Below, in pieces: positions 49,111 through 55,182 of a DNA stretch of 64,000 nt. The stretch lies in the NCBI GenBank assembly GCA_019454145.1, contig CP075366.1:475564-539563 (forward strand). The letters run 5' to 3'. The notes under the pieces were generated by a model. That model saw only the letters and a program-made list of their open reading frames with translations. It did not search any database and was not told the DNA's origin. Source of the DNA: Fimbriimonadaceae bacterium. GTDB taxonomy: Bacteria; Armatimonadota; Fimbriimonadia; Fimbriimonadales; Fimbriimonadaceae. Position 1 is the first letter of the stretch, and every line of letters begins with the position of its first letter. The translations under genes and the position numbers were made by a program.

Positions 49111-50199
49111 ATGGATACGATTCAAATTAAAGTAGGCGAAAGGTCGTTCACCCTCGACCGAGAAAAAGCAGAAGCCGCGCAAGTCGCTAAGTCCGTCATC
49201 AACGGTCGCGAAACCATGACGTTCAACCTTCTGCCGCTCAAATACACCTGGGCGTACACGCTTTACCGGACGATGAAGGCCAACCACTGGGAGCCGGAAG
49301 ATATCCCCATGCAGCGCGACATCGAGCAATGGCGCAGCGATAACGACCTCAGCGACGTTGACCGCTGGGTCATCCGCATGGCGATAGGCTACTTCAGCGC
49401 GGCGGAAGGAATCGTAGGCGACAACATCCTGCACGTTGTTCGCGAAAATGTCACCGCCAGCGAGCTCAAATTGGTGCTCGGACGCCACGCCCACGAAGAA
49501 AATATCCACGCCGACAGCCTGCTTTACATGATTTCCAGCCTAGGCATCAATCCGCACGAATGCGAGGCGATGTTCGAAGACGTTCCCACCATCAAGCGCA
49601 AAAACGAATTTGTCACCCGCATCAGCCAGAGTATGCGGCGCGATATTGACCTCACCAAAACCGAAAACAAGCAGTTACTCGCACGCAACATTTTTATGTT
49701 CGGTCAGTGCATGGAAGGCACCCAGTTCTACGGCTTATTCGGCATGGTTCTCAGCCTGTACCGCCAGGGCAAGTTCCCAGGCATCGGGCAAATGTTCAGC
49801 TACACCTTGCGCGACGAAAGTAACCATATCGAGCTGTTCCGCCAACTGCTCATGGAACTCGTGGACGAAAACCCCGATATCTGGACGAGCGAATTCAAAC
49901 TAGAACTCGTGAATACGATGAAGGAAGCGGTGAACCTCGAAAAAGAGTTCATCCGCGACTGCCTTCCAGTTGCCGCTGTCGGCCTGAGCGCTGAGGAGTT
50001 CATGCAATACATTGATTACATCGCCGACCGCCGGCTGGAAGGCTGTGGCCTACCCGCCATGAACCCCGGCATCGCCAATCCTCTGCCTTGGCTCGCGGAA
50101 ATGATGGACATCAAGAAAGAGAAGAACTTCTTTGAAGGCCGGGTGACGGAATATCAAAAGTCATCGGCTCTGAATGCAGTCGATGACGACGAGTTGTAA
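49111..50199 (+). CDS. nrdB: Ribonucleotide reductase small subunit, class Ic-like
   Basis: A 362-aa R2 subunit that supplies the radical or high-valent metal site for deoxyribonucleotide synthesis. Metal ligands can be placed at Glu99 (FSAAEG), Glu130 and His133 (HEENIH), Glu202, Glu236 and His239 (RDESNHIE). The usual radical Tyr (His+4) is Leu137, with Tyr139 at His+6, and the first ligand is Glu instead of Asp. This matches the Chlamydia-type class Ic (Mn/Fe) pattern. The frame opens at GTG 49048, but ATG 49111 fits the family. The large subunit gene is not adjacent. The 3' end is duplicated at 51715-51732. Confidence 0.9.
   Translation: MDTIQIKVGERSFTLDREKAEAAQVAKSVINGRETMTFNLLPLKYTWAYTLYRTMKANHWEPEDIPMQRDIEQWRSDNDLSDVDRWVIRMAIGYFSAAEGIVGDNILHVVRENVTASELKLVLGRHAHEENIHADSLLYMISSLGINPHECEAMFEDVPTIKRKNEFVTRISQSMRRDIDLTKTENKQLLARNIFMFGQCMEGTQFYGLFGMVLSLYRQGKFPGIGQMFSYTLRDESNHIELFRQLLMELVDENPDIWTSEFKLELVNTMKEAVNLEKEFIRDCLPVAAVGLSAEEFMQYIDYIADRRLEGCGLPAMNPGIANPLPWLAEMMDIKKEKNFFEGRVTEYQKSSALNAVDDDEL
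50182..50199 (+). repeat. Direct repeat, left copy (3' end of nrdB)
   Basis: GATGACGACGAGTTGTAA, the last five codons and stop of nrdB, recurs at 51715-51732 with one change. The two copies flank 1.5 kb holding the PIN gene and a RAYT fragment. Confidence 0.75.
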
Positions 50200-50229
50200 A
50201 CATTAATCGACTTAACGCAGAATAATGAA

Positions 50230-51549
50230 ATGACGTCAATGCACGATCTGTTCAGGCATCATTATCGGCTTAACGAGTCTGAAAAACAGTCACTTTGGGA
50301 AAATTGTGAATTTGCTTTAGACGCGAATGTACTCCTAAACGTGTACAGATATGATGATGAAACCCGCGAAGCTTTTTTCGAAATTCTCGCTGCCCTGAAG
50401 GATCGTATTTGGATACCTCACCAGTCTGCCAAAGAATTTTTCGAAAACCGCATTTCAGTGATTCAGGAGCCAGTTAAACAGTTTGAGGAACTAAGTGTAA
50501 CTCTCGATAAACTGACTGAAAAAATAAATATTGCTAAGTATTCAAAAAGTACTCATCTGAATGTTGAAAATATTGTAGATATAATAGAAAGAGCAGTAGC
50601 TGATGCTAAAAGTAGCATTTCCTCTCATAAGGATCGTCACAGAGACTTGATACGAGACGATTCCTATTTAACCAAATTAACGAGTTTAATTTCTGAACGA
50701 ATAGGCCAACCATATGACGAAAATGAATTGAATAAAATTTTAAAAATTGCTCAGCAGAGAATAAACAATTCCACACCTCCAGGGTATAAAGATGCTGGTA
50801 AAGGCGAGCCTGAATGTTATGGAGATACCATTGTTTGGTTTCAACTAATATCAAGAGCAAAAGAAACAAAACGACCAATTATTCTAATTACTGATGACAA
50901 AAAAGAAGACTGGTGGGAAATCATTAAGGGCGAAAGGCTGGGGCCCAGGCCGGAACTGCGAGCTGAGATGTTTGCTGAAGCACAAGTGGATTTCGGGACT
51001 ATTAATTCTGCTAACTTTTTCGAACATAGTGGAAAGGGGTTGTCCATAAACGTTAAAAAGGCTAGTGTGGAAAATGCAAAGGATGTATCTGCTGGTATCG
51101 ATAGTAGTCTGCTGAGCCATTGGTATACTAATTTCGACGTTGAGCCACCTGATAAATCAGCAATATGGATTAAAAGTTTTGAATACGCAATAATCAATTC
51201 CTTGGCAAAAAAAGGGCTATTTCTTCAAACAAGTAAATATTCCTTTTGTGATTATGAGGCAATTCAAAATGATGCAAGTATCTTTTTTAGCTTTAAGCGC
51301 ATTCAGGAAATTCGCACTATGTATAATCATATACAAATGTTTGCAAAGCACATATATGGTCTAGATCAATCTAAAGCCGAATTTAGATTGTATTTCGTTT
51401 TTGATAATGAAGAAAGTGGGCTGCAGGCAATAGATAGCGTTTACGCATTAGCAAACTTCAAGGGATCTTTCTTCAGAGTGCATATAGGCTTTCTAACCGA
51501 GTTTTCAGGTTACCAAGAGATTGGATTCTTATATCTAGGAAGTCCGTAA
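50230..51549 (+). CDS. PIN-like domain (PIN_8 type) protein
   Basis: A 439-aa protein. The N-terminal region (about 25-225) looks like the PIN_8 nuclease-like domain: FALDANVLLNVYRYDDETRE with the first acidic residue, RIWIPHQSAKEFFENR, a conserved acidic KGEPECYGDTIVWFQLI and PIILITDDKKEDWWE. The remaining 200 residues match nothing I recognise and may be a target or sensor domain. It is clearly more AT-rich than its neighbours and is enclosed by a direct repeat of the nrdB end, both signs of acquisition. PIN_8 proteins are often found in mobile or defence settings; a defence role is only a possibility. Confidence 0.78.
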   Translation: MTSMHDLFRHHYRLNESEKQSLWENCEFALDANVLLNVYRYDDETREAFFEILAALKDRIWIPHQSAKEFFENRISVIQEPVKQFEELSVTLDKLTEKINIAKYSKSTHLNVENIVDIIERAVADAKSSISSHKDRHRDLIRDDSYLTKLTSLISERIGQPYDENELNKILKIAQQRINNSTPPGYKDAGKGEPECYGDTIVWFQLISRAKETKRPIILITDDKKEDWWEIIKGERLGPRPELRAEMFAEAQVDFGTINSANFFEHSGKGLSINVKKASVENAKDVSAGIDSSLLSHWYTNFDVEPPDKSAIWIKSFEYAIINSLAKKGLFLQTSKYSFCDYEAIQNDASIFFSFKRIQEIRTMYNHIQMFAKHIYGLDQSKAEFRLYFVFDNEESGLQAIDSVYALANFKGSFFRVHIGFLTEFSGYQEIGFLYLGSP

Positions 51550-51603
51550 AGAACTATATGGTACTTTGAATATATGTCAAGTGTGCGTGGATATAGGAAT
51601 CTA

Positions 51604-51713
51604 ATGAGGTGGCAGAACTTCTCAGTCTAGCGAGGACGTCTCCGACACTAGCGGGCGGATGGAGTCCAGTATTACGCAAGTTCCGCCACAAACACCCACT
51701 CGAAGTACACGGG
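51604..51713 (+). pseudogene. Truncated RAYT gene fragment
   Basis: About 110 bp that closely match the first codons of the intact RAYT gene at 52504, from GGTGGCAGAACTTCTCA to the ACAAACACCCACTCGAAG region. It has an in-frame TAG where the intact gene has TGG, a 1-bp deletion near 51677, and stops abruptly at the second copy of the nrdB tail. Upstream TGTCAAGTG is shared too, so the duplicated piece began before the start codon. Confidence 0.82.
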
Positions 51714-51714
51714 G

Positions 51715-51732
51715 GATGACGACGAGTTATAA
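51715..51732 (+). repeat. Direct repeat, right copy (duplicated nrdB tail)
   Basis: GATGACGACGAGTTATAA repeats the nrdB 3' end with 17 of 18 bases identical. It joins the RAYT fragment on its left to the terminator hairpin on its right. Confidence 0.75.
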
Positions 51733-51736
51733 GAAG

Positions 51737-51765
51737 AATTAGGCGGACAAAGCGTCCGCCTAATT
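51737..51765 (-). terminator. Terminator of the papain-like peptidase gene
   Basis: AATTAGGCGGAC (51737-51748) and GTCCGCCTAATT (51754-51765) form a perfect 12-bp stem with a 5-nt loop. On the minus strand it lies 6 nt after the peptidase stop and is followed by CTTCTTAT. It may also have ended nrdB transcription before the insertion. Confidence 0.8.
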
Positions 51766-51771
51766 CCAACC

Positions 51772-52455
51772 TCATTCTTCTTCAAATTCAAAGAAGGCAT
51801 ACTCTAAGCCCGTTCCAGCAGGCACTCTCTGATTACTGAAAGTCAGTGCCCAACCTTGTGGCGTCGGTTGCAATTGCCCCGATCCTCTTATAGGATCAAA
51901 AATTCTCAATGAACTTGGGTATTTGTAACCATTTGAATCTTCCTGGTACGACATTCCGGAAATAGCATAAATATGAGCTGTAGTGAACGACTGGTCGTTC
52001 CATAAGCTGAGGAGCACAGGCGTTTTTCTTTCCTTAATAGATTCAACAATTGAATCAAAGTCACTAGCCATATCCATTGGGTCACTCTTCACAACGGGTG
52101 TCACATCCAAAGACATCGTGAATCGCTTATTCTTGTTATTAACGAAAACACACTCTGTTAGTGGCTCAAATTCCTGGAAGCTCTTGATGGTTGTCACAAG
52201 AGAATCGCCATATACGATTTTTACAATATTAGCTTGGGAGACTGGTAGTTTCTCGTCATCTCCGAATTCGATACTTTTAATATTCATGGTTGCAAGAACC
52301 ATCTCCATGCCAGCCGCCCAGCACCAAACTAATGTTTCCTGGTAACGTTTTTTTGAAACAAAATTGGAAATTTGAACATTTTTAGTTGGTGGAGGAGCGT
52401 ATTGCTGAAGAGAGGATGATTGTAGAGTCAAGGCAAGAATGGTGCTTATTATCAT
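51772..52455 (-). CDS. Exported papain-like cysteine peptidase
   Basis: A 227-aa protein with a short hydrophobic N-terminus (MIISTILALTLQSSS) and a C39/C70-type papain-like fold. The catalytic Cys is in TLVWCWAAGMEMVLA, the His in TTAHIYAISGMSY and the Asp in LRIFDPIRGSG. Family members cleave peptides or act as secreted effectors; the substrate is unknown. It is somewhat AT-rich and lies between the RAYT fragment and the intact RAYT gene. Confidence 0.72.
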   Translation of the reverse strand: MIISTILALTLQSSSLQQYAPPPTKNVQISNFVSKKRYQETLVWCWAAGMEMVLATMNIKSIEFGDDEKLPVSQANIVKIVYGDSLVTTIKSFQEFEPLTECVFVNNKNKRFTMSLDVTPVVKSDPMDMASDFDSIVESIKERKTPVLLSLWNDQSFTTAHIYAISGMSYQEDSNGYKYPSSLRIFDPIRGSGQLQPTPQGWALTFSNQRVPAGTGLEYAFFEFEEE

Positions 52456-52503
52456 TTCCTAATTTATATATCAGAAATACAGTCGGTTGTCAAGTGAATA
52501 TAT

Positions 52504-52977
52504 ATGGCTAAGTGGCAGAACTTCTCAATTTGGCGGGGACGCCTCCCGCACTGGCGTGCGGATGGAGTCCAGTATTACGCCACCTTCCGCCACAAACGCC
52601 CGCTAGAAGACGCAGAGATAAACCTGCTGTTCCAGCGGTTGATGCGCGCGCAGAGGCGCAAGTTCGACTACCACATCCTGTGCGTGTTGCCCGAAAAAAC
52701 CGAGATGATCTTCACGGTCAACGAATCCCCCGATGGTTCGCCTTACGAACTCACGGACGTGATCGAAAAAGCCAAACGCCAGGCGGGGAACGCGATCATC
52801 AAAAAGAGCCAGGAGCGGTGGCCCCCGTTCTACACTGAGTGTTATGATCGCATCATCCGCGACGAAGCCGAGTTTGAATCCACTTGGGAAGCGATCCTAA
52901 GTTCACCCGTGGATACTGAACTCGTCGAAGACCCGAGCGATTGGTGGACAATCTTCGTCCCCGATGCACCGGAGTAA
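52504..52977 (+). CDS. RAYT-like Y1 transposase relative lacking the HUH motif
   Basis: A 157-aa protein homologous to REP-associated tyrosine transposases. The N-terminal WRGRLPHWRADGVQYYATFRHKRPL corresponds to the usual GHLPHW...YFVTFRL opening. The middle DYHILCVLPEKTEMIFTV aligns with the family's VVMPNHVHLL, but both histidines of the metal-binding HUH motif are gone (PEKTE). The tyrosine region FYTECYDRIIRDEAEF is retained. This suggests a domesticated or catalytically altered protein. A REP-like array begins 6 bp after the stop and another lies before nrdB. A broken copy lies at 51604. Confidence 0.8.
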   Translation: MAKWQNFSIWRGRLPHWRADGVQYYATFRHKRPLEDAEINLLFQRLMRAQRRKFDYHILCVLPEKTEMIFTVNESPDGSPYELTDVIEKAKRQAGNAIIKKSQERWPPFYTECYDRIIRDEAEFESTWEAILSSPVDTELVEDPSDWWTIFVPDAPE

Positions 52978-52982
52978 TAAAT

Positions 52983-53094
52983 ACACTGGTTAAACCCCAA
53001 TCTAAGAATTAACAGTAATTGCCCTCACCAAGTTTGGGGAAAGTTAGGGTGGGGTTGATCAATTCCCCCTACCTTTGTCAAACAAAGGTAGGGG
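52983..53094 (+). repeat. REP-like hairpin array, copy 2
   Basis: It begins ACACTGGTTAAA right after the RAYT-like gene, as in copy 1. It continues with CCCTCACCAAGTTTGGGGA and AGGGTGGGGTTG, and ends in a perfect 13-bp stem, CCCCTACCTTTGT (53066-53078) with its inverse at 53082-53094. The strong terminal stem has the same place as in copy 1 but a different sequence. It may also terminate transcription. Confidence 0.62.
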
Positions 53095-53113
53095 CACAAG
53101 CACAAGCGTGTAG

Positions 53114-53587
53114 TTACTCCTGTTTGTTATATGGCGGGTGTTTTCCTTTGACAGTGTCAAACTCTTGGTCAAACAAAGCATTAACTTCGGAGTTCTTCAG
53201 GTGAGTTCCCGTGAGAACGCGAACACGATCTCCCGTTAATAACCGGACTTTAGCCCAATCCCCTTCTTTTGTTATCAGAATAACTGTCCATTCATCAATA
53301 AGATCAGCGTCGGCCAGCGCCTTGATTTTTTCCCAAGATTCGGTGAGTCTTCCTTCACCTACATAGCTCGGGCGATCAGTTTCAACTGCAATCAATTTTT
53401 CGGCCTCTATTGGCAGGCCGTCGGCCGTAAGATGGTTTTCGAATTGTTCAAAGTGTTGCGCATTAGGAGGCGGAAACATGACATCGTCGAAAACCTTGAA
53501 TGCAAATACCGGAATAGCAATGATCACAACGATAAGCAGGATCAATGAAACAGTCATACAACCTTGCGATCTGAGCAATTTCAGCAT
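53114..53587 (-). CDS. Unrecognised single-pass membrane protein
   Basis: A 157-aa protein with an N-terminal membrane helix (VSLILLIVVIIAIPVFAF) and an acidic soluble domain. The stretch IDEWTVILITKEGDWAKVRLLTGDRVRVLTG looks like a small beta domain. I do not recognise the family. The start is ATG 53587. It stands alone between the REP-like array and leuA. Confidence 0.6.
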   Translation of the reverse strand: MLKLLRSQGCMTVSLILLIVVIIAIPVFAFKVFDDVMFPPPNAQHFEQFENHLTADGLPIEAEKLIAVETDRPSYVGEGRLTESWEKIKALADADLIDEWTVILITKEGDWAKVRLLTGDRVRVLTGTHLKNSEVNALFDQEFDTVKGKHPPYNKQE

Positions 53588-53659
53588 CTATTTCTCATAT
53601 TGCTAACGATTGCTAAACCCCTTCTAAATCTGCGCCGACAGGCGAGGAAATCTTAATTA

Positions 53660-54802
53660 CTACTTCTTGACCAACTCATACAGATCACCGTCCCCGACTT
53701 CTGTGCGGGTATCCGCCATTTCCAGGAAGTAGGTGTACAGTTCTTCAAATCGTTCGGCAGGGAAGCTGAAGCCAAGTTCGCTTAGTCGATGCTTGAGCCC
53801 ATGTCGACCAGAGCGTGCTGTGAGGATAATCTCGCTCTTTTCTGCCCCAACCAGGGATGGATCAATAATTTCGTAGGTGCTGCGCTCTTTGAGCACGCCG
53901 TCTTGGTGGATGCCGCTACTGTGAGCGTAGGCGTTGGCTCCAACCACGGCTTTGTTGCGCTGAACAAGCATTCCGGTGAGTTCGCTCACCATTTTGGAAA
54001 TCGCCAGCAGTTTTTTCGTATCGATCGAGGTTTCTAATCCGAATTTGTCTTCGCGGATGTGCAAGGCCATCACTACTTCTTCCAGGGAAGTATTGCCCGC
54101 TCGTTCGCCGATACCGTTGACTGTGACTTCAACCTGACGCGCACCGCCGATCACGCCGCCCAGAGTGTTTGCCGTTGCCATTCCGAGGTCGTTGTGGCAG
54201 TGGCAACTGAAAACGGCTTTATCGCTATTAGGAACATTGCTAATGAGGTCTGCGAATAGCTGTTGATATTCATCCGGGGTGGTGTATCCGGTTGTATCGG
54301 GAACGTTGATAACCGTTGCGCCCGCGCTAATCACCGCTTCGACAACTCGGTAAAGATATTCCTTTTTCGCTCGACCGGAGTCTTCCATGAAATATTCGAC
54401 ATCGTCGGTGAACTGCCGCGCCAGCTTGACCGCAGCAACTCCTTTTTCGAGCGCTTGGTCTTCGGTCATGCGAAGTTTGTTGACCAGGTGGTTTTCACTC
54501 ACACCTAGCCCAGTGTGGATGCGGCGTCGTTCTGCTGGTTTGAGTGCTTCTGCCGCACATTCGATATCTTTGGCAACCGCGCGGGTTAAGCCACAAATAG
54601 TGACTCCTTTGAGTTCGGTTGCAAGGGTATGAACGCTTTCAAAATCGCCGGGCGAGGAAATAGGGAAGCCCGCTTCAATAATATTCACACCTAAGTCAAC
54701 CAGAGCGCGACCGATCTGCAACTTCTGATCCATGTTCAGGCGCACACCGGGGCTTTGTTCACCATCGCGGAGAGTTGTATCGAAGATGTGCACTTGGTTC
54801 AT
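53660..54802 (-). CDS. leuA: 2-isopropylmalate synthase, short form
   Basis: A 380-aa enzyme of leucine synthesis (acetyl-CoA plus 2-oxoisovalerate). The catalytic TIM barrel has IFDTTLRDGEQSPGVRLN, INVPDTTGYTTPDEY, FSCHCHNDLGMATANTLGG and GIGERAGNTSLEEVVMAL. It ends just after the linker domain (RSGRHGLKHRLSELGF, VGDGDLYELVKK), so the C-terminal leucine-binding regulatory domain of full-length LeuA (about 500 aa) is missing. The product may escape leucine feedback, or it may be a related citramalate or homocitrate synthase. ATG 54802 is preferred; ATG 54820 is possible. Confidence 0.88.
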   Translation of the reverse strand: MNQVHIFDTTLRDGEQSPGVRLNMDQKLQIGRALVDLGVNIIEAGFPISSPGDFESVHTLATELKGVTICGLTRAVAKDIECAAEALKPAERRRIHTGLGVSENHLVNKLRMTEDQALEKGVAAVKLARQFTDDVEYFMEDSGRAKKEYLYRVVEAVISAGATVINVPDTTGYTTPDEYQQLFADLISNVPNSDKAVFSCHCHNDLGMATANTLGGVIGGARQVEVTVNGIGERAGNTSLEEVVMALHIREDKFGLETSIDTKKLLAISKMVSELTGMLVQRNKAVVGANAYAHSSGIHQDGVLKERSTYEIIDPSLVGAEKSEIILTARSGRHGLKHRLSELGFSFPAERFEELYTYFLEMADTRTEVGDGDLYELVKK

Positions 54803-54862
54803 GTTTGTTTTCCGGAGCATGCGGGAACCTGCCCGCCGATATACTTTCAGGGTACCGAAAAG

Positions 54863-54891
54863 TTGACCAATTTGTATGCCGAACCTAAGAT
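54863..54891 (+). promoter_or_regulatory. Sigma-70-like promoter of the NIL-domain operon
   Basis: TTGACC (54863-54868) and TAAGAT (54886-54891) are spaced by 17 nt. Expected transcription start near 54898 gives a leader of about 45 nt, in contrast to the leaderless arrangement seen at many other genes here. Confidence 0.55.
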
Positions 54892-54942
54892 GTTGGGTCG
54901 GTATTCATATCGCAATGCCAGGAGCGGTAATATCTTTAGGCA

Positions 54943-55182
54943 ATGGTCAGTATTGATGTGAACCTCACCGCCCGCGATCAACAGGTCGGCGAACCATGGA
55001 TTTGTCGCCTCTGCAAAGATTTCGACCTTCGGGTAACAATTCTAAAGGCGAACGTTGATACAGATTTCGGTTACATGCTCATCAATATCACCGGTGAGCT
55101 AGAAGAAGCCCAACGTGCAATCTCCTGGTTGATGACAACCGGACTCCATGTAGATTCTGAACAGCGCGCCGTCGGGGCATGA
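54943..55182 (+). CDS. NIL-domain (ferredoxin-like) small protein
   Basis: A 79-aa protein made of one NIL domain, the ACT-like fold found at the C-terminus of MetN-type methionine transporters and in some ferredoxins. The pattern EPWICRLCKDFDLRVTILKANVDTDFGYMLINITGELEEAQRAISWL is characteristic. It may bind an amino acid or act as a regulatory subunit. It overlaps the next gene by 4 bp and is divergent from leuA. Confidence 0.75.
   Translation: MVSIDVNLTARDQQVGEPWICRLCKDFDLRVTILKANVDTDFGYMLINITGELEEAQRAISWLMTTGLHVDSEQRAVGA

Follow-up and report, generated by a model that had tools for sequence, protein, structure and literature searches.

The gene at positions 52504-52977 (+) of the window, by which we mean the whole 64,000-nucleotide stretch of Fimbriimonadaceae DNA analyzed here, encodes a 157-residue catalytically dead homologue (P0001) of the RAYT (TnpAREP) enzymes. 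It is homologous to them over its length, it has lost all four catalytic sites, its clade is monophyletic with respect to the active relatives and universal in the family, and the gene is under purifying selection, its old place on the chromosome being next to PII and DnaK. The first-pass annotation of this DNA had pointed to a single protein without its HUH histidines; the finding is larger, namely a family-wide clade of RAYTs in which the histidine pair, the catalytic tyrosine, and the metal-ligand asparagine are all gone. We consider it probable that this is an ancient, domesticated RAYT that would bind structured nucleic acid without cutting it.

Gene and homology

The open reading frame is intact, with an ATG start, and the protein has the opening GRLPHW...YYATFR; the first-pass annotation had described both the full-length frame and the RAYT opening correctly. 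Its assignment of the protein to the RAYT family also goes beyond chance. NCBIfam NF047646 (REP_Tyr_transpos) matches the window protein at E=3.8e-10 and 39.8 bits, which is below the cut-off of 80 bits, and 30 of 37 members of the dead clade match the same model at E<=0.01. When the profile of the dead clade is compared with that of the active relatives by hhalign, the probability is 99.9 and E=1.1e-33 over 155 columns, and the alignment crosses all catalytic sites without a gap, so that sequence homology to RAYT/TnpAREP extends across the catalytic core. Pfam Y1_Tnp (PF01797), in turn, matches neither the window protein nor any of the 37 dead-clade members, whereas it matches 11 of 11 active relatives. 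An identity as Phage_tail_S/TIGR01635 was set aside, as the matches are weak, under the cut-off, and found in just 2 of the 37 members.

Among named records, the closest protein, at 97% identity, comes from a Fimbriimonadaceae MAG, and that of Armatimonadetes bacterium Uphvl-Ar1 follows at 81%. An AlphaFold2 model built on six sequences had a pLDDT of 37.7 and was left unused.

Loss of the cleavage chemistry

In class 2 TnpAREP the catalytic tyrosine lies within the motif Y---NP, and the asparagine of that motif provides the third ligand of the metal (PMC6006769); Y115F is the catalytic mutant of E. coli TnpAREP (PMC8266576). Residues were matched to TnpAREP by running the family profile along the E. 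coli protein (4er8), an alignment that is weak (E=0.015) but full-length. It places VLPEHMH opposite VLPEKTE, and DYIYINPV opposite EAILSSPV of the window protein. PEKTE (residues 63-67, 52690-52704, +) takes the place of P-D-H-V-H in the active relatives, at the HUH site where the first-pass annotation had put it, with K65 at the first histidine and E67 at the second. The Y---NP segment has become A130-I-L-S-S134-P, so that Ala130 (52891-52893, +) takes the site of the catalytic tyrosine (TnpAREP Y115) and Ser134 (52903-52905, +) that of the metal-ligand asparagine (TnpAREP N119). With these two also replaced, all of the Y1 chemistry is gone, the histidines being only part of it.

One earlier statement has to be withdrawn. 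The tyrosine region was thought to be kept in CYDRIIRDE, but the catalytic tyrosine belongs to Y---NP. The tyrosine of CYDRIIRDE (Y114) aligns with TnpAREP W99, is a tyrosine in 55 orthologues and a phenylalanine in 25, and, judged by alignment, is not the catalytic residue.

These losses are shared by the clade and are not those of one copy, which settles what the first-pass annotation had left to be checked, whether a clade with a PEKTE-like replacement exists. Residues were counted in 79 readable orthologues (78 or 80 at some sites) and in 21 active relatives, of which 3 belong to Fimbriimonadaceae itself and the other 18 to different families of the phylum. The first histidine is found in 1/79 orthologues versus 21/21 active relatives, the second in 1/79 versus 20/21, and both together in none of the 79; the catalytic tyrosine and the metal-ligand asparagine each stand at 0/79 versus 21/21. 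The dead clade accordingly lacks both the HUH motif and the Tyr and Asn of Y---NP by which RAYT/TnpAREP proteins are recognized. In their place the HUH site has a consensus of its own, T or S at position 66 (79/79) and E or D at position 67 (72/79), and is therefore not drifting randomly, although the first histidine position varies (K, A, Q, R, V, T, and others). No second conserved HxH is found among the orthologues: of the histidines that are conserved, H16 belongs to LPHW and is common to the active relatives, and H30 is isolated. Such a motif was one of the findings named in the first-pass annotation as refuting its reading, which this check leaves standing. By its defining features the protein is RAYT-derived and, as far as sequence can tell, is not a functional Y1 HUH nuclease.

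A 2018 survey of the superfamily reports HuH and Y motifs in all of its sequences, and its main text mentions neither Armatimonadetes nor Fimbriimonas (PMC6006769).

Retained and clade-specific residues

The LPHWRA motif (residues 14-19, 52543-52560, +) opens with LPH(W), common to the active RAYTs of the phylum, and continues with R18-A19, which is specific to the dead clade (78/78). K91 (52774-52776, +), which the alignment puts next to K82 in the DNA-binding helix of TnpAREP, is present in 79 of 80 orthologues and in all 21 active relatives. Within ECYDRIIRD (residues 112-120, 52837-52863, +), D115 (79/80) and R119 (79/79) align with TnpAREP residues 100 and 104, which are named as contacting GTAG. 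Other positions retained from the active type include P15, H16, and Y24 (78/78 each) and E112 (80/80), and those lost besides the catalytic four include M62, P72, A95, G106, and W109. Residues fixed in this clade specifically include F7, W10, R18, and A19 (78/78 each), E88 (78/80), and E82 and E104 (76/79 each); H30 (72/78) is clade-specific as well.

The case for a nucleic-acid binder that does not cut rests mainly on the retention of positions matching binding together with the loss of the chemistry. We infer nucleic-acid binding on these grounds, and the retention of K91, D115, and R119 makes single-stranded DNA of REP hairpins a candidate ligand.

Two known groups are helpful for comparison. 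E. coli TnpAREP (class 2 Y1 HUH, PDB 4er8) is like the dead clade in its homology over the full core and in the positions that match GTAG contacts, and RAYT/TnpAREP proteins are likewise single-copy and domesticated; unlike TnpAREP, the dead clade has no HUH pair, catalytic Tyr, metal-ligand Asn, or Pfam Y1_Tnp match (0/37). The active RAYTs of LPHW type in the phylum, read in L048 and 20 further proteins, share the LPHW opening, an ESYDRIxRD segment, equal length, and the order of elements, but they keep H-x-H, Y---NP, and the Pfam Y1_Tnp match (11/11) and are patchily distributed.

Distribution, descent, and selection

A profile of 37 members, searched against 85 genomes of Fimbriimonadaceae, finds an orthologue in 80 of them, including 70/70 high-quality genomes and all 32 genera; the five genomes without one are all incomplete assemblies (68-89% complete). 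Strong matches come one per genome (in G007 the gene is divided between two contigs), and each weaker second match that was read proved to be an ordinary RAYT, its HUH and Tyr both present. In the window genome (2.76 Mb, one contig) the full-length gene occurs once, and a single broken fragment of it lies 0.9 kb upstream. In complete orthologues the frame is open over its full length, a lone TAG in G097 lying at the natural C-terminus, and the gene is retained even in family genomes of 1.5 Mb (G036, G099).

When 291 genomes of the phylum were searched, no match outside the family had an E-value better than 1.3e-27, and other families of the same order yield three weak matches alone, which read as ordinary active-type RAYTs. 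In a maximum-likelihood tree of 98 rows, comprising the dead clade and active relatives, the dead clade stands apart from all active relatives with 100/100 support; the inner bootstrap values of this tree are unsettled and its inner order is rough.

Unsaturated dN/dS values come from two close pairs only, at 0.034-0.040 for G000-G004 and 0.018-0.037 for G005-G006. These values, together with the presence of the gene in all 70 high-quality genomes, answer the question of purifying selection raised by the first-pass annotation in the affirmative. The clade thus has the marks of a domesticated transposase: single copy, clade-wide presence, purifying selection, and an old locus.

Genomic neighborhood and a possible protein partner

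Synteny was compared in 20 genomes plus the window, from 15 genera, over about 19.5 kb each. A PII (GlnB) gene lies upstream in 8 of the 15 genera; its stop overlaps the start of our gene in G028 and G021, is 6-10 nt from it in G025 and G011, and elsewhere is up to 1 kb away. DnaK is encoded downstream in 8 genomes of 7 genera, and a sensor histidine kinase gene also recurs beside the orthologues. We regard the PII/DnaK neighborhood as the old chromosomal address of the gene, which supports vertical descent. In the genus of the window, DnaK is still downstream in G002 and in G001, at a distance of 3.7 kb in the latter, and G000, G003, G004, G005, and G006 have a common new address after the gene for the small chain of ribonucleotide reductase, which fits one relocation. 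In the window genome PII is at 351 kb and our gene at 528 kb, far apart.

The close linkage to PII seen in several genera may point to a function within a PII-linked regulon; as the linkage has been lost in the window lineage, it is not obligatory. It also raises the alternative that nucleic-acid binding has been lost and only the fold kept, as a small protein-interaction partner, of PII for instance, or in proteostasis alongside DnaK. This would accord with the ancestral PII linkage, with gene ends overlapping or near-abutting in four genera, with the DnaK linkage, and with the many clade-specific fixed residues, several of them acidic (E82, E88, E104). We think it unlikely, because the residues matching REP contacts (K91, D115, R119) are the best kept of all, the N-terminal LPHW segment is retained with its arginines, and the window lineage does without the PII linkage.

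HAIR-like inverted repeats lie upstream of dnaK at L101, L102, L107, L111, L114, L115, and L116, with a perfect CTTGAGT-N7-ACTCAAG at L102, and we take them to resemble the HAIR/HspR consensus. Their presence suggests putative HspR control of dnaK in Fimbriimonadaceae, so that dnaK is probably under a control of its own. The dead RAYT was considered as a regulator of dnaK and rejected, since the HspR HAIR-like repeat in several genomes would account for that control.

Compared with G004, the window has about 2.3 kb extra (50200-52503) separating the dead RAYT from the ribonucleotide reductase small-chain gene. This segment contains a gene for a PIN_8-domain protein (50230-51549) and a 227-residue open reading frame with no Pfam match (51772-52455, -). 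Between them, at 51609-51732, is a decayed copy of the 5' end of our gene followed by an 18-nt repeat of the 3' end of the reductase gene; the decayed part (51609-51705, +) corresponds to the first ~97 nt, at 87-88% nucleotide identity and with in-frame stops. The segment looks like an insertion with duplicated flanks. An Rfam search over 50000-55000 gave no match.

REP-like DNA and the other RAYTs of the genome

The first-pass annotation had placed the gene beside REP-like arrays. What stands is one exact palindrome downstream, CCCCTACCTTTG-TCAAA-CAAAGGTAGGGG (53066-53094), along with a degenerate second element; the word arrays overstated this, as both belong to dispersed families. The pattern CCCCTACCTTTG-N5-CAAAGGTAGGGG occurs in 16 copies in the genome (<=3 mismatches, loop free), versus 0 for the reversed control pattern. 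The second element is also palindromic and dispersed, reads about TTCCCTCCCCAAGTTTGGGGAGGGTTAGGGAGGGGTTGA (L117-L126; around window positions 53013-53060), and often adjoins the CCTACC palindrome, giving composite BIME-like units. The exact palindrome at 53066 is absent from the orthologous loci sampled.

Flanking cognate REP palindromes, as expected of a RAYT, are not found around the dead gene here or at the orthologous loci sampled. They are found around an HUH-intact RAYT of another type (G000:C1:467822-468250; L033, L158), which has CCCTACC...GGTAGGG palindromes on both sides. That RAYT, flanked by palindromes of the same kind, is thus the likely partner of the 53066 palindrome, and together with the dispersed palindromes it likely forms a REPtron. 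The palindrome was accordingly dismissed as the dead gene's own REP, being dispersed and of the kind that flanks the HUH-intact RAYT. GTAG-tagged hairpins near the gene numbered 3 among 148, with no sign of enrichment, and were rejected as a nearby target. Another RAYT match above the family cut-off (G000:C1:823300-823752; L034, L159) has one in-frame TAG.

The dead RAYT could also be pictured as a non-cutting antagonist of active RAYTs in the same genome, limiting the spread of REPs by occupying their hairpins or by mixing into dimers. The retained REP-contact positions would suit such a role, and the window genome has both HUH-intact RAYTs and a dispersed REP-like family. We nevertheless judge it improbable: the gene is universal whereas active RAYTs vary in number and kind among genomes, identity between the dead RAYT and the HUH-intact one in the window genome is only about 20%, and no matching REP element was found at the orthologous loci sampled.

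A changed enzyme or a dying gene

The first-pass annotation had offered an enzyme with a changed mechanism as the alternative to a domesticated DNA-binding protein. Here a new metal site, built from the conserved T66-E67 together with further clade-specific acidic residues or H30, would cut or modify nucleic acid without a tyrosine. The stability of the HUH site (T/S 79/79, E/D 72/79) and the clade-specific H30 (72/78) are in its favor, and the conserved acidity of position 67 and of several clade-specific residues keeps it alive. It is weakened by the loss of Tyr and Asn as well, which leaves no nucleophile at the tyrosine site (0/79) and no asparagine ligand (0/79), and by the variable first histidine position, and we rate it improbable. 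Simple decay of a dying copy under relaxed selection, to which the lost catalytic residues and the broken partial copy 0.9 kb upstream might lend color, is ruled out for practical purposes by the family-wide alignment, the full-length frames of complete orthologues, a dN/dS of 0.02-0.04, and a universal single copy that persists in 1.5-Mb genomes.

Interpretation and significance

The domesticated DNA binder, one of the two options originally proposed, is strongly favored over the changed enzyme; the loss is shared across the clade and selection is not relaxed. An enzyme that once served a mobile element is now probably a host protein that binds nucleic acid and does not cut it. We envisage a single capture of an LPHW-type RAYT, no later than in the ancestor of Fimbriimonadaceae. 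The protein lost its entire cleavage chemistry, the two histidines, the catalytic tyrosine, and the metal-ligand asparagine alike, and since then purifying selection has maintained the gene in single copy as part of the core genome. The protein would retain an HUH-like core fold and may use a surface formed by LPHW, K91, D115, and R119 to bind hairpins that form in single-stranded DNA or RNA. It would act by occupancy, in a structural or regulatory capacity, rather than by cutting.

TldR proteins, the nuclease-dead regulators derived from TnpB, offer a conceptual parallel, in that an IS200/IS605-type protein has been exapted as a non-cutting regulator (PMC13418256). Unlike the dead RAYT, they derive from TnpB, not TnpA, and are RNA-guided (PMC13418256). 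A tentative and rather doubtful extension is that the dead RAYT is their counterpart in the TnpA lineage, a family-wide, cleavage-dead HUH fold serving as a sequence-specific, hairpin-binding regulator (of DNA or RNA), possibly in a PII-linked nitrogen-signaling circuit.

Why bacteria retain RAYTs over the long term is an open question, and one that is usually framed around cleavage activity. A clade that is free of the chemistry, yet universal and strongly selected, suggests that a host may benefit enough from binding, or from some other function without catalysis, and makes that proposition testable.
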